Below, one piece after another: positions 17,616 to 21,391 of a stretch of 33,702 nucleotides of DNA. The DNA comes from Frankia sp. AgB32 (lineage in GTDB: Bacteria > Actinomycetota > Actinomycetes > Frankiales > Frankiaceae): the NCBI RefSeq assembly GCF_023243045.1, contig NZ_JALKFX010000097.1:1-33702 (forward strand), given 5' to 3'. Under the pieces are notes generated by a model, which made no database searches, had not been told where the DNA came from, and worked only from the letters and a program-made list of their open reading frames with translations. Both the position numbers and the translations under genes were made by a program. The stretch's first letter is position 1; each line of letters begins with the position of its first letter.

Positions 17616-17644
17616 GGTGTAACCCCCGGTCCTATCCCCTGGTG
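17616..17644 (+). promoter_or_regulatory. Three-block promoter-like motif upstream of the ECF sigma gene
   Basis: GGTGTAACC (17616-17624), CCTATCC (17631-17637) and GGTG (17641-17644) are spaced exactly as in the copy at 19239-19267 before the cupredoxin gene. GTAACC resembles an ECF -35 element, and GGTG lies 16 bases after it. It lies about 95 bases before the preferred GTG of the sigma gene. Autoregulation is inferred. Confidence 0.5.
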
Positions 17645-17739
17645 TGCGGGAGATCTGGATGCGGCCGGGCGGCGGAACGCGGATACAACGGGTCCCAGCG
17701 CGATCGGCCGCGGCGGCCCAGCCGGTCCGGGAGGAGTGG

Positions 17740-18441
17740 GTGAGCGTCGACGGCGACGGCGACGGCTCTGCCGGCCGGACGGCACCCGGGCCGGGTGCCG
17801 ACCACGCCCCGAAACTGCGGGTCGTGGGCTCGGACGACGCCTATCCCGACTGGGAGGCGATCTACCGTGACAACGTGGACCGGATCTACCGCGTCATGTA
17901 CGCGAAGGTCGGCAATCGGGCCGACGCCGAGGACCTGACCGCCGAGGTCTTCATGACCGCGCTGCGGCCGCTGCGAGTGTCGGCGAGCGTCGGCGAGGTC
18001 CGGGCCTACCTGTTCACCGTCGCCCGCACCACCCTCGCCGCCCACTGGCGGCGCACCCTCGGCGTGGCGGTGACGACGTTGGACGACGAATCGATCGACT
18101 CGCTACTCGCCGCCCCGGCGTTCAGCCCGGCGACCCCCGTCGGCCCACACCCGGATCCTGCCGGCAACAGCGCCGGCCGGGGTAGCGGCGCCGGCGCGGC
18201 GCCACCGGAGGCCGCCGGCGCGGCCTGGCCGGGCGGCGGCGCCGACGCGCCCGCCCGGGCCGAGGCGATTCTGGCCGAGCTGTCCCCGCGCTACCAGCGC
18301 ATCCTGCGGCTGCGGTTCCTGGAATCCTGTTCGCTGCGGGAGGCCGCCGCCGAGCTGGGGGTGACCGTCGCGAACGCCAAGGTCCTCCAGCACCGGGCGC
18401 TGCGCCGGGCAGCCGAGGTCACGCGCCGGTGGGAGGCCTGA
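17740..18441 (+). CDS. ECF-type RNA polymerase sigma factor
   Basis: This 233-residue sigma factor has region 2 (about 40-100: YRDNVDRIYRVMYAKVGNRADAEDLTAEVF) and region 4 (about 177-230: ELSPRYQRILRLRFLESCSLREAAAELGVTVANAK), joined by a Gly/Ala/Pro-rich linker at about 135-165. The frame is open to a GTG at 17644 and an ATG at 17659, but the GTG at 17740 follows a clean GGGAGGAG site and sits next to the conserved domain, so it is preferred. The stop overlaps the start of the Rieske protein (TGATG). By position, the N-terminal region of that protein is the likely cognate anti-sigma factor. Confidence 0.88.
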   Translation: MSVDGDGDGSAGRTAPGPGADHAPKLRVVGSDDAYPDWEAIYRDNVDRIYRVMYAKVGNRADAEDLTAEVFMTALRPLRVSASVGEVRAYLFTVARTTLAAHWRRTLGVAVTTLDDESIDSLLAAPAFSPATPVGPHPDPAGNSAGRGSGAGAAPPEAAGAAWPGGGADAPARAEAILAELSPRYQRILRLRFLESCSLREAAAELGVTVANAKVLQHRALRRAAEVTRRWEA

Positions 18442-19229
18442 TGGGACGCGGAGCACGCAGGTTCATCGACGATCTTCTCGCCGGCCGCCGACCCAGGTCG
18501 TTCGCCGCCAGTGCCAAGGACGCCGAGGAGATCCGAACCGCCCTCACCCTGCGCGCGGCGGCCCCGCGGGCCGCCGAGCCGCGCCCGGATTTCGTCGCTG
18601 ACCTGCACCGACGTCTCGCGGCCGCGGCTGCGGCGGACGCCGAGGCCAGTCGCTCGCCGGAGTCAGGGCCCCAGGCGCTCCCCGGGTCCGGGGCGCAACC
18701 GCCATCCGCTGGTGCGGGCCGGCGCGCGGGGAACTCGTGGCCTGGGGGCACCCGTCGGGGATTCGTGTGGGTCACCTCGGTGGCCGCGGGGGCGACGGCG
18801 GTCGGTGCCGCCGTCGGCGCCGGGGCGGACCGGCTGTTCTCCCGCGGTGGCGGCGGGGCGGAGACGACGGCCGCCGATCACGTGATCGTGCCCAACACGG
18901 CGACCTGGTGGACGGTCGCCACCAGCCAGGACCTGCCCGAGGGAAGCGTGCGCGCATTCGACCTCGGCGCGGTCACCGGGTTCGTGGAGCGCCGCGGCGG
19001 CGAGGTGCGCGCGGTCTCCGGCGTCTGCACCCACCAGGGCTGCCAACTCGCGCTGGACGCGGCCGTGCGCCGGCTCAACTGCCCCTGCCACCGGACCGTC
19101 TTCGAGCTCACCGGCGAGGTCGCGCATTCCCAGCTTAAAACTCCCCCGCGTACGCTACCGGAATTCGAGGTGCGGGAGGTGTCGGGTGTCGTACAGGTAT
19201 TCGCGCCACCTGGATCCGAACGGACCTGA
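18441..19229 (+). CDS. Membrane-anchored Rieske [2Fe-2S] protein with a possible anti-sigma N-terminus
   Basis: This 262-residue protein has three parts. Residues 1-60 (FIDDLLAGRRPRSF, DAEEIRTALTLRAA, FVADLHRRLA) form a cytoplasmic, charged helical region. A Ser/Pro/Gly linker runs to a twin-arginine and a hydrophobic helix (RR at 105-106, helix about 107-128). The extracytoplasmic Rieske domain ligates its cluster through CTH (196-198) and CPCH (214-217), with the extra Cys201 and Cys216 typical of disulfide-stabilised, bc1-type Rieske proteins. It is coupled to the sigma gene by a one-base overlap. Inference: the N-terminus holds the sigma factor and the Rieske cluster senses redox state outside the membrane. 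No zinc-type anti-sigma HxxxCxxC motif is present. A simple electron-transfer role is the alternative. Confidence 0.85.
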   Translation: MGRGARRFIDDLLAGRRPRSFAASAKDAEEIRTALTLRAAAPRAAEPRPDFVADLHRRLAAAAAADAEASRSPESGPQALPGSGAQPPSAGAGRRAGNSWPGGTRRGFVWVTSVAAGATAVGAAVGAGADRLFSRGGGGAETTAADHVIVPNTATWWTVATSQDLPEGSVRAFDLGAVTGFVERRGGEVRAVSGVCTHQGCQLALDAAVRRLNCPCHRTVFELTGEVAHSQLKTPPRTLPEFEVREVSGVVQVFAPPGSERT

Positions 19230-19238
19230 CGCCGTGAA

Positions 19239-19267
19239 GGTGTAACCCGGCTGCCTATCCAGGGGTG
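19239..19267 (+). promoter_or_regulatory. Three-block promoter-like motif upstream of the cupredoxin gene
   Basis: GGTGTAACC (19239-19247), CCTATCC (19254-19260) and GGTG (19264-19267), in the same spacing as at 17616-17644. It begins 10 bases after the Rieske stop and leaves a leader of about 62 bases before the GTG at 19330. It suggests a second promoter for the downstream genes read by the same sigma factor. Confidence 0.5.
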
Positions 19268-19329
19268 AGGAGTCCGCACGGACGCGGACCGCGATCCCCA
19301 AGGCCCAACCGGGTCGGAACGGTATTGCT

Positions 19330-19869
19330 GTGACAACCGAATCGACAGTCCGAAAGCGCGCGACACCGTTTTCGGCGGTGGTCTTTCTGACGCTGGCCCT
19401 GGCCATACTCGCCGCCTGTGGATCAACCGGAACGAAGAACACCGCGGCCGCCGCGCCGGGCGCGGCGGGAACGGCGACACCGGGATTCGTCCCCAGCGGC
19501 GCCGCGACACCGCCCCCGAACGCGATGCCCGGGATGACGATGCCCAGGATGACGATGCCCGGGATGACGATGGCGGCGGCCGGCGCGGCGGGTGCCGCGA
19601 GCGCGCCCGCGGCCACGGGGAACGCGGTGGCCATCAAGAACTTCGCGTTCGACGCGGCGAACCTGACGGTACGGGTCGGGACCACCGTCACCTGGACGAA
19701 CCAGGACGGCGACGCCCACACCGTCGTGAGCTCCGGCAGCGGCCCGCTGCACTCGCCGACCCTGGACACCGGCGACACCTACCAGTACACCTTCACCAAG
19801 GCCGGCACCTACTCCTATCTGTGCTCCATCCACCCGTTCATGCTCGGCTCGGTGCGGGTGACCGCGTGA
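19330..19869 (+). CDS. Cupredoxin (plastocyanin-like) lipoprotein
   Basis: This 179-residue exported protein has a signal peptide ending in the lipobox LAAC (Cys30), predicting lipid anchoring outside the membrane. A Met-rich stretch follows (MPGMT three times, about 66-81), resembling copper-binding methionine motifs. The C-terminal cupredoxin domain (about 97-179) has VAIKNFAFDAANLTVRVG, and type 1 copper ligands His130, Cys165, His168 and Met171 (YLCSIHPFM). The GTG start at 19330 is the first in frame before the signal peptide. It should carry one copper for electron transfer or copper binding. It follows the Rieske gene and is coupled to the phosphoesterase by a GTGA overlap. Confidence 0.9.
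   Translation: MTTESTVRKRATPFSAVVFLTLALAILAACGSTGTKNTAAAAPGAAGTATPGFVPSGAATPPPNAMPGMTMPRMTMPGMTMAAAGAAGAASAPAATGNAVAIKNFAFDAANLTVRVGTTVTWTNQDGDAHTVVSSGSGPLHSPTLDTGDTYQYTFTKAGTYSYLCSIHPFMLGSVRVTA
19525..19569 (+). repeat. 15-bp repeat encoding the Met-rich segment
   Basis: Three 15-bp units (19525, 19540, 19555), each ATGCCC then G or A, GGATGACG, encode MPGMT, MPRMT and MPGMT. An additional ATG follows at 19570. The amplification directly adds methionines, which are potential Cu(I) ligands. Confidence 0.9.
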
Positions 19870-20849
19870 GCGGCCCCAGCGGCCCCAGCGGCCCCAGCGG
19901 CCCCGGCAGCCCCAGCGCCGGCGCGCCCGGCGTGGGGATGAGCCGGCGCCAGCTCGCCCGGCACGCCTCCTGGTTCGGCGCGGCCGTCGGGCTGACCGTG
20001 GTCGGCGGCGAGCTGACCCGGCACGCCGTGTCCGACCCGAGTGGCGCCACGCCGGCCGCCGCGGCCCAGGGCGTGCACTTCGTGCAGGTCAGCGACAGCC
20101 ACCTCGGGTTCAAGGGGCCCGCGAACCAGGACGTCACCGGCTCCTTCCAACGGGCGATCAACCAGGTGAACGCGCTTCCCTACCAGCCGGACTTCGTCAT
20201 CCACACCGGCGACCTCACGCACCTGTCCACGCCGGCGCAGTTCGACCAGGTGAAGCAGATGATGTCCGGGCTGCGCACCGGCGAGGTCTTCACGGTGCCG
20301 GGCGAGCATGATTCCGTCGGCGACCACGGCAAGGGCTATCTGAAGACCTTCGGATCAGGCACCCAGGGCGACGGATGGTACAGCTTCGACGTCCGCGGGG
20401 TGCATTTCATCGGGCTGGTGAACACGTTCAGTCTGGAGGCCCTCGGGCATCTCGGCCCGACACAGATCGAGTTTGTCCGAAAGGACGTCGCCGGCCTCGA
20501 CAGCGATGTTCCGATCGTCGTCTTCAGCCATATCCCGCTGTTCGCCATGTATCCGAAATGGGGTTGGGGGACGGACGACGCGGCCACCGTCCTCGGCCAT
20601 CTGCGCCGGTTCTCCTCGGTGACCTGCCTCAACGGCCACGTCCACCAGCTGTTCACGAAACGGGAGGGGAACGTGACGTTCCAGTCCGCGACCACCACCG
20701 CCTATCCGCTGCCCCATCCCGGCGTCGGCCCGGCGCCGACCCCGCAGACGCTGCCCGCCGGCAAGCTCGCCGCCGCGCTGGGCATCCGCGAGGTCCAGTA
20801 CCGCCCCGGCAACACCGCGCCGGCGATCGTGGACAGCAGGCTCGCGTGA
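19866..20849 (+). CDS. Tat-exported calcineurin-like metallophosphoesterase
   Basis: This 327-residue protein has a two-metal phosphoesterase domain: VSDSHLG, HTGDLTH, PGEHD (in place of the common GNHD), VFSHIPL and LNGHVHQ. The N-terminus has MSRRQLARHASWFGAAVG, a twin-arginine plus hydrophobic segment, so Tat export or membrane anchoring is likely. The GTG at 19866 overlaps the cupredoxin stop (GTGA); an ATG at 19938, just before the twin arginines, is an alternative and would give 303 residues. The nine-base repeat at the start encodes SGP repeats. Substrate unknown (phosphodiester or phosphomonoester). Its Asn-to-Glu change in the GNHD position is notable because that Asn normally contacts metal or phosphate. 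Confidence 0.87.
   Translation: MSGPSGPSGPSGPGSPSAGAPGVGMSRRQLARHASWFGAAVGLTVVGGELTRHAVSDPSGATPAAAAQGVHFVQVSDSHLGFKGPANQDVTGSFQRAINQVNALPYQPDFVIHTGDLTHLSTPAQFDQVKQMMSGLRTGEVFTVPGEHDSVGDHGKGYLKTFGSGTQGDGWYSFDVRGVHFIGLVNTFSLEALGHLGPTQIEFVRKDVAGLDSDVPIVVFSHIPLFAMYPKWGWGTDDAATVLGHLRRFSSVTCLNGHVHQLFTKREGNVTFQSATTTAYPLPHPGVGPAPTPQTLPAGKLAAALGIREVQYRPGNTAPAIVDSRLA
19869..19904 (+). repeat. 9-bp tandem repeat at the phosphoesterase start
   Basis: AGCGGCCCC occurs four times in a row (19869, 19878, 19887, 19896). It encodes SGP repeats directly after the coupled GTG start and before the Tat motif. Confidence 0.92.
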
Positions 20850-21391
20850 GCGGCCCGCAGAGCGCCGCACAGGGCGGCGCCACGCAGCCGAGTGCCGCGC
20901 AGGCCGGCGGCACCCACGGTGGTAGCGGGTCGCGAACCGGCGCGCCGGCCGGCGGCTCACGGGCGGGCGAGGCGCTGCGGGCCTGGCGGGCGGATCCGCC
21001 GGCGCTGGCCGCGCGGCTGCTCGCCGCCGCCCTGCTGGCCGCCGGCGGGTACGTGCACCTGCACCTCTACCTGGACGGCTACCGGGTCATCCCGAAGATC
21101 GGGAACATGTTCCTGATCCAGGAGAGCGGGGCGTTCGCGGTCGCGCTGCTGCTGGTGTTCAGCGGCGCGGCGGTGCTGCGGCTGGCCGCCGCCGGACTCG
21201 CGGCTGGTGCGCTCGGCGGTTTCGTCATCTCCCGCACGGTGGGGCTGTTCAACTTCACCGAACGCGGGCTGCAGCCGTCCCCGGACGCGTTGCTCAGTCT
21301 CCTGGTCGAGGTGGCGACGCTGCTCGTGCTCGCCGCGCCGGTCGTCCCGGCGGCGATCCGGTGGACGAGGAGCCGACCGGCGAGCGCGTGA
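20846..21391 (+). CDS. Small integral membrane protein, unknown function
   Basis: This 181-residue protein has a Gly/Ala/Ser-rich N-terminus of about 45 residues, then about four hydrophobic helices: LAARLLAAALLAAGGYVHLHLYL, SGAFAVALLLVFSGAAVLRL, LAAGALGGFVISRTVGLF and LLSLLVEVATLLVLAAPVV. The His-containing end of the first helix (YVHLHLY) could bind metal or haem, but this is speculative. The GTG overlaps the phosphoesterase stop as GTGA, so it belongs to the same transcript. I do not recognise a named family. Confidence 0.75.
   Translation: MSGPQSAAQGGATQPSAAQAGGTHGGSGSRTGAPAGGSRAGEALRAWRADPPALAARLLAAALLAAGGYVHLHLYLDGYRVIPKIGNMFLIQESGAFAVALLLVFSGAAVLRLAAAGLAAGALGGFVISRTVGLFNFTERGLQPSPDALLSLLVEVATLLVLAAPVVPAAIRWTRSRPASA

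Follow-up and report, generated by a model that had tools for sequence, protein, structure and literature searches.

In CnrYXH and other metal-sensing extracytoplasmic function (ECF) sigma factor systems, a membrane anti-sigma factor is coupled to metal at the surface of the cell; in CnrYXH a separate protein senses the metal. Rieske domains are, to our knowledge, known as electron carriers and as parts of oxygenases, rather than as sensors that control sigma factors. A [2Fe-2S] cluster has been described on two anti-sigma factors: RsmA, the HATPase_c family partner of sigma-M in Streptomyces, and RshA, the partner of SigH in Mycobacterium tuberculosis, which has a zinc-type motif with Cys ligands (PMC3427169, from the portion available). 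RsbN, the partner of sigma-BldN in Streptomyces, is the only class III anti-sigma factor with a solved structure and binds with three helices, and CnrY binds with two (excerpt of PMC7406223, where two names are swapped); the portions of the RsbN literature consulted name no signal for this class. Here we analyze a 33,702-nucleotide stretch of DNA from Frankia sp. AgB32 (the window; contig C248 in an assembly of 274 contigs and 6.68 Mb), in which an ECF sigma factor gene is directly followed by a gene for a protein with a predicted N-terminal three-helix domain, a twin-arginine translocation (Tat)-like signal anchor and a Rieske [2Fe-2S] domain. We propose that this Rieske protein is, very probably, an anti-sigma factor.

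The sigma-Rieske pair is best read as a variant of the BldN/RsbN kind that carries a putative Rieske sensor and is distinct from BldN itself. It shares with RsbN/sigma-BldN the nearest solved sigma factor, a candidate anti-sigma gene directly 3' of the sigma gene, a profile-related three-helix domain and a CGTAAC-like box. It differs in that the C-terminal part of the window protein is a Rieske domain behind a Tat-like anchor, whereas all three RsbN-position proteins that were scanned with Pfam, from a set of six, have DUF5667 in its place; the window sigma factor also falls far below the BldN cut-off, and the spacing of the strong boxes differs. The resemblance to RsmA and RshA lies in the [2Fe-2S] cluster on an anti-sigma factor, but in the window protein the cluster would belong to a Rieske domain (two Cys, two His) predicted on the far side of the membrane. 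CnrYXH is alike by description only, as a membrane anti-sigma factor linked to surface metal, and differs in the two helices of CnrY and in its separate sensor. No anti-sigma factor with a Rieske domain came up in searches of the full-text literature, a scope outside which most subscription papers and the main ECF classification lie, and the word Rieske is absent from the accessible portion of an ECF sigma factor review (PMC8103513).

A conserved pair of sigma factor and Rieske protein genes

All five genes that a sequence-only reading had assigned to one block (encoding a sigma factor, Rieske protein, cupredoxin, metallophosphoesterase and membrane protein) are present on the + strand at positions 17644-21391 (Table 1). 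The sigma and Rieske genes overlap by one base, a 100-base gap separates the Rieske and cupredoxin genes, and the cupredoxin/phosphoesterase and phosphoesterase/membrane-protein junctions are 4-base overlaps, so that the five genes appear to form one operon-like block. A gene start at 17616 was not borne out; positions 17618-17636 hold a conserved promoter-like motif, and the start codon of the sigma gene is either GTG 17644 or GTG 17740, the latter preceded by GGAGGAG. Homology to all relatives of the sigma factor starts near 17842. Pfam sigma regions 2 and 4 confirmed that the first gene encodes an ECF sigma factor. Its best PDB chain is sigma-BldN (6dxo_A, E 9e-14) and its best NCBIfam match is the BldN equivalog TIGR02952, but at 72.6 bits against a cut-off of 206.45; because this cut-off is not reached, we call the protein BldN-like, not BldN.

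A 67-position profile of the N-terminal domain of the Rieske protein, searched in 393 genomes of the class, gave matches in 25, of which 24 (the window genome included) are true; the match in the remaining genome, G444 (L132), is weak and lies in an unrelated protein, and it was removed before counting. In every one of the 24 genomes the gene for the fused protein has a sigma gene directly upstream (the window and 23 of 23 fetched loci, L109-L131). Thus, the conserved co-occurrence that had been suggested as a check on the sequence-only reading is seen for the sigma-Rieske pair in 24 of the 393 genomes, and the Rieske protein does occupy the anti-sigma position. A possible Rieske start codon, taken by script as the first ATG, GTG or TTG near the sigma stop, overlaps that stop in 22 of the 23 relatives and lies one base after it in L128, and a Rieske domain is present in 22 of the 23 loci, the other (L125) being cut by a contig end. 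Searched in the other direction, at E 1e-30 or better, the sigma subgroup turned up in 25 of the 393 genomes: these 24 and G422, whose sigma gene lies right at a contig end. G189, a genome from outside the class, has the sigma gene with two such Rieske proteins in tandem behind it. Each protein found with both the N-terminal domain and the Rieske domain has a sigma gene next to it, except the second G189 copy, which lies behind the first. The adjacency of the sigma and Rieske genes is more than chance. These whole-genome searches scored the best first-look candidates (15 per genome for the N-terminal domain, 6 for the sigma factor), so genomes may have been missed; a search in which up to 150 candidates were scored returned the same 13 of 35 genomes of the order.

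The five-gene set also occurs, in the same order and with both copies of the promoter-like motif, on plasmid NC_021278.1 of Mycobacteroides abscessus subsp. bolletii 50594, which is predicted to be mobilizable and was the sole match at E 1e-10 among 72,556 plasmid records. Its annotation lists a sigma factor, a Rieske protein, a cupredoxin, a metallophosphoesterase and a hypothetical protein, the last equated with the fifth gene by position only. Below, genomes are called mycobacteria-like on the basis of their PPE genes and their likeness to this plasmid.

Among 26 further loci that encode more distant Rieske proteins, none has the N-terminal domain or a sigma gene in the adjoining DNA, which indicates that the fusion is specific and not a general habit of Rieske proteins. 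The sequence-only reading had held that Rieske homologs lacking both the N-terminal region and a neighboring sigma gene would speak against it; these distant proteins do lack both, and the fused proteins keep their sigma gene.

Two sigma loci are irregular. In the mycobacteria-like genome G439, the sigma gene (L121:4446-4973) is apparently split over two frames, with a stop inside the match, by disruption or assembly error. In the Frankia-like genome G422, two contigs (L167:3814-4155 and L168:1-755) end inside an apparent sigma gene start and each carries the motif, so that the gene is either duplicated or broken up by the assembly.

Relation of the N-terminal domain to proteins in the RsbN position

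AlphaFold2 modeled the N-terminal domain as three helices with a mean predicted local distance difference test (pLDDT) score of 81 and a predicted template modeling (pTM) score of 0.44, and in the model of the full protein these helices have ten-residue pLDDT means of 76-85. When a 27-sequence profile of the domain was compared with 396 genomes of the phylum, 11 weak matches were found outside the family. Those ranked 1, 2 and 4 (L192, L193, L195) are encoded directly behind an ECF sigma gene; no sigma match was found in the locus DNA of the remaining eight (L194, L196-L202). Relatives of the L193 protein were collected from nine loci, six of which have an adjoining sigma gene, and the three with no sigma match (L209, L210, L212) were left out of the alignment, which thus contains six domains. 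Four of the sigma neighbors of these RsbN-position proteins were scored and gave 164 to 209 bits with the BldN family (one of the four passes the cut-off of 206), and one neighbor matches the solved sigma-BldN at 8e-52. By hhalign, the window-family domain aligned with the six RsbN-position domains over 58 columns (probability 91%, P 1.1e-6) with a score of 36.2, versus 18.4 for the best of 200 column shuffles and 12.8 for the reversed control. The proposal that the N-terminal region is an anti-sigma candidate is therefore strengthened by a profile relation to domains that sit in the RsbN position beside BldN-type sigma genes. Searches of the PDB with the alignment of the N-terminal domain, with that of the RsbN-position domains and with one RsbN-position protein all stayed at noise level.

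The domain is not of the zinc-associated anti-sigma (ZAS) type: the motif H-x3-C-x2-C was not found, as there is no Cys in window residues 1-72 and no Cys column in the family alignment, and a common His within LHRRL lacks Cys partners. Weak matches to Pfam DUF7739 were found for 14 of the 27 sequences (best E 0.0018), with the window domain scoring 18.6 bits against a cut-off of 27, and this family was not used. One free-standing copy of the domain, 65 residues long and with neither hydrophobic segment nor Rieske part, is encoded in G189 (contig C209; L134:4032-4226), where it immediately follows a cupredoxin gene with a CGTAACC...TATC motif; it is possibly a soluble feedback anti-sigma protein.

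The Rieske domain and its predicted Tat-like anchor

The Rieske domain with its cluster ligands and disulfide cysteines, as first read from the translation, was upheld by Pfam (PF00355, 53.9 bits; cut-off 20.3) and by the invariance of C196, H198, C201, C214, C216 and H217 in 25 of 25 sequences. Equally invariant (25/25) is the twin arginine R105-R106 ahead of an Ala-rich hydrophobic segment. The hydropathy of this segment is moderate in the window protein (19-residue maximum 1.59), and it is the most hydrophobic stretch there and in 24 of 25 relatives, with 19-residue means of 1.04-1.97. In the AlphaFold2 model of the full protein, the Rieske fold has ten-residue pLDDT means of 89-97, and the linker and hydrophobic segment have means of 35-57. 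The twin-arginine motif and the known biogenesis of Rieske proteins together point to a Tat signal anchor, with the N-terminus inside the cell and the Rieske domain outside.

Like the Rieske subunits of bc1, b6f and arsenite oxidase, to which it has weak NCBIfam matches, the window protein has both cluster boxes and the disulfide cysteines. It differs from them in falling below all curated NCBIfam cut-offs and in its extra N-terminal domain, and no partner cytochrome or oxidase gene was found in the five-gene block of the window.

A shared motif upstream of the sigma and cupredoxin genes

The promoter-like motif, YGTAACC-N6-CTATC, recurs across the family. A TGTAAC box and the second box are present in 22 of 25 sigma upstream regions, with GGTAACC variants in L115 and L116 and, among these 25 regions, no motif in L127; a TGTAAC box is present in 18 of 19 cupredoxin upstream regions, with a CGTAACC variant in L134. 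The motif is kept 5' of both genes across families and always points toward the gene. Thirty non-redundant sites taken from 58 have two strong boxes 8 bases apart, YGTAACC and CTATCT; a weak TGGTG is also present, at about the distance of the BldN -10 (near N16). The BldN promoter consensus is CGTAAC-N16-CGTTGA, and the first box of the motif resembles its CGTAAC (PMC2375139, as far as its available text goes). TGTAACC and CTATC were considered as -35 and -10 boxes and rejected, their 8-base distance being too short for a canonical promoter. In L113, L114, L117 and L121 the cupredoxin ATG follows the second box at a distance of 7 bases, an arrangement expected of a leaderless transcript should that box be the -10.

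We scanned 35 chosen genomes, 26 with the system and 9 without, for the exact pattern TGTAACC-N7/8-TATY, which was built on the sigma and cupredoxin sites of the with-system genomes, so that those sites match by construction. It occurred 59 times and the reversed pattern 7 times; the with-system genomes account for 57 of the 59 and the other nine genomes for 2. Some of the 59 had no plausible target and were kept in this count but not treated as targets: L173 (inside a gene), L176, L181-L184 and, in L112, L115 and L116, those located behind the Rieske gene.

The best supported unlinked putative target is a small secreted protein encoded elsewhere in the window's genome (G000:C210:24375-24824; L165:3476-3925) that belongs to no Pfam family, has a GSPWTLKSQHDDDGPG core and has the motif 5' of its gene. 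Counting this one, seven strong orthologs were found among the 35 genomes of the order; [TC]GTAACC...CTATC occurs within 220 bases upstream of the gene in six of the seven, and a site with one change in the seventh. In G594 the gene lies behind the Rieske gene. On C210, a divergent second motif faces a glyoxalase-like gene. The motif also precedes genes for a ferredoxin together with an iron-containing redox enzyme in G530, as well as, by likeness, in G485, and PPE genes in three mycobacteria-like genomes (L170, L171 and L172; G096, and by likeness G439 and G449), where the PPE identity was confirmed by Pfam for L171 and by likeness for L170 and L172. It lies 297 bases ahead of the gene for a ferric-reductase-like protein in G339 and 388 bases ahead of a second cupredoxin gene in G189.

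The cupredoxin, the phosphoesterase and neighboring genes

The Met-rich type 1 copper lipoprotein of the sequence-only reading was found as described, with a Copper-bind (PF00127) score of 42.8 bits against a cut-off of 21.2 and the lipobox LAAC. Its type 1 site, H ... C-x2-H-x2-M, is kept in the window protein and 18 of 18 relatives. The Tat-type metallophosphoesterase likewise has its twin-arginine N-terminus and scores 38.4 bits with Metallophos (calcineurin-like; cut-off 21.5). Calcineurin-like enzymes usually have GNHD/E; the window protein and 14 of 15 relatives have GEHD, the fifteenth (L110) being a partial frame. The fifth protein matched nothing in Pfam up to E 1 or in NCBIfam up to E 0.1. 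The phosphoesterase gene shares the locus in at least 16 of the 24 genomes and the fifth gene in at least 12, window included, these counts being lower bounds because of contig ends. The cupredoxin-phosphoesterase unit is divergent in L112, L115 and L116, and in G366 (L175) it lies elsewhere in the genome behind the same motif.

A PAP2-like protein is encoded beside or near the sigma-Rieske pair in two distant lineages (L127:6109-7371 and L133:3509-4666), and in L127 its gene overlaps the sigma start by four bases. The Pfam PAP2 scores of these proteins are just or clearly below the cut-off; presumably they have a likeness to vanadium haloperoxidases.

Table 1. Coordinates of the features of the five-gene block in the window
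Feature	Position	Strand	Remarks
Promoter-like motif TGTAACCCCCGGTCCTATC	17618..17636	+	5' of sigma gene
ECF sigma factor, nearest BldN type	17644..18441	+	GTG 17644 or GTG 17740 start
Putative membrane anti-sigma factor with Rieske domain	18441..19229	+	262 aa
N-terminal three-helix anti-sigma-like domain	18441..18653	+	residues 1-71
Tat-like signal anchor: twin arginine (TRRGFV) and Ala-rich hydrophobic segment	18750..18833	+	residues 104-131
Rieske [2Fe-2S] domain	18906..19211	+	residues 156-257; CTHQGC and CPCH boxes
Second copy of promoter-like motif	19241..19259	+	in Rieske-cupredoxin gap, 5' of cupredoxin gene
Met-rich cupredoxin	19330..19869	+	lipobox LAAC; type 1 copper site (HTV, C-S-I-H-P-F-M)
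Metallophosphoesterase	19866..20849	+	twin-arginine N-terminus; GEHD motif
Membrane protein of no known family	20846..21391	+	kept 3' of phosphoesterase

A model for control across the membrane, and its alternatives

We think it probable, on balance, that the sigma factor and the Rieske protein are a sigma/anti-sigma pair of the BldN/RsbN class in which the Rieske domain is the sensor and the motif marks the regulon. This model builds on features apparent from the DNA: the domain architecture, the strict pairing, an N-terminal domain related to those in the RsbN position, the invariant ligands and the shared motif. Under the model, the three-helix domain would bind the sigma factor in the cytoplasm and inhibit it, and the Tat-type signal anchor would carry the folded Rieske domain, its cluster assembled, to the outer face of the membrane. 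There the [2Fe-2S] cluster would be exposed to the extracellular redox or copper state, and a change in the domain, most likely in the redox state or integrity of the cluster, would loosen the hold on the sigma factor. The free sigma factor would then read YGTAACC-N6-CTATC promoters and transcribe the operon that encodes it, along with the cupredoxin-phosphoesterase unit and a small number of unlinked genes, putative targets that are mostly exported or redox-flavored. Confidence in this model is uneven across its parts. As stated, an anti-sigma role for the Rieske protein is very likely; for sensing by the cluster itself we see an even chance, and the identity of the signal is part of what we infer. 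A direct electron link between the Rieske protein and the cupredoxin is plausible. Still more tentative, and in our view somewhat doubtful, is a fuller scheme in which electron exchange between the Rieske cluster and the cupredoxin reads copper or oxidant at the surface and sets the hold on the BldN-like sigma factor, the five genes travel as a mobile cassette, and in one lineage the soluble domain provides feedback.

Several observations weigh against the model. The comparison of the N-terminal domains is not wholly independent, because the RsbN-position set was reached via a match to the query profile; the RsbN chain in the PDB was found by neither the profile of the N-terminal domain nor that of the RsbN-position domains; and a fold comparison of the N-terminal model with 36 chains gave four with Z>=2 (best 2.8), none of them an anti-sigma factor. 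The single membrane helix of the sequence-only reading stands as a hydrophobic Ala-rich segment, in which the AlphaFold2 model contains no confident membrane helix. The cupredoxin gene shares the locus with the pair in 18 of the 24 genomes (a lower bound, as some of the other six loci are at contig ends), which weakens the case for a strict gating pair of Rieske protein and cupredoxin. The motif may not be the promoter of the window sigma factor, because its strong boxes are 8 bases apart and those of BldN are separated by N16; a -10 placed at the weak TGGTG would overlap the cupredoxin start codons in L113, L114, L117 and L121. When sites 5' of the sigma gene, those before the cupredoxin unit of the system and four that closely follow the Rieske gene are set aside, 14 unlinked sites versus 5 for the reversed pattern are left in the 26 with-system genomes, and 2 versus 2 in the 9 without; because this excess is modest, most unlinked sites, taken singly, require independent support. 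Finally, the gene for the secreted protein is in only 6 of 14 with-system genomes of the order and is also in G485, where the system was not found.

Alternatives to the model change the role of the cluster, the domain or the motif. The Rieske protein could be an anti-sigma factor whose cluster is a checkpoint of Fe-S supply or Tat export and not an extracytoplasmic redox sensor: a clusterless protein would neither fold nor be exported, and so could not hold, or would always hold, the sigma factor. Tat passengers fold before export, which agrees with such a checkpoint given the invariant twin arginine ahead of the hydrophobic segment, and RsmA and RshA provide precedents for iron-sulfur anti-sigma factors. 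An outside signal nonetheless fits better with the conserved neighbors and several putative targets, which are predicted to be extracytoplasmic, namely the cupredoxin, the exported phosphoesterase and secreted proteins, and we regard the checkpoint as unlikely. The Rieske domain might instead carry electrons to or from the cupredoxin, with the N-terminal domain as a regulatory tether and the signal elsewhere, for example in proteolysis, so that an exported redox chain would be tied to the sigma factor only for its expression. A Rieske protein, an amicyanin-like cupredoxin and putative redox targets (G530, G485, G339, G189) do occur together, but no clear cupredoxin was found within about 5 kb of the pair in L118, L124, L127 and L128 (L118 has one weak match, E 6e-4, about 4 kb away), and no further electron partner is apparent in the gene lists of six loci, whose neighbors are not systematically annotated. 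This arrangement seems to us quite improbable.

The motif could also be the site of a separate DNA-binding regulator, which would place two layers of control on the operon. This would account for strong boxes too close together for a canonical sigma-70-family promoter and for the weakness of the third box near N16, as well as for the presence of one site each in G485 and G494, where the sigma factor was not found, and for the pair without a motif in L127. The system may, however, be missing from the G485 assembly, because this draft of 1310 contigs keeps two putative targets with sites. Against a separate regulator stand the constant direction of the motif toward the sigma and cupredoxin genes, its BldN-like first box and the concentration of exact sites in with-system genomes (chosen genomes, on which the pattern was built), and we give this reading only a small chance. 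That the neighborhood is a chance or housekeeping redox operon, with an N-terminal domain unrelated to the sigma factor, is very hard to credit: the 26 distant Rieske loci do indicate that Rieske proteins in general are not sigma partners, but the strict pairing extends across several families and to a plasmid, and the profile relation to RsbN-position domains would be left without explanation.

If the proposed model is true, a well-understood redox cofactor on one face of the membrane could control transcription on the other, and these bacteria may set gene activity by electron flow or copper at the cell surface. A sharp DNA motif would mark the system's putative targets, which form a compact set, and one shared signal would link cupredoxins with an odd exported phosphoesterase in Frankia as well as in other actinobacteria.

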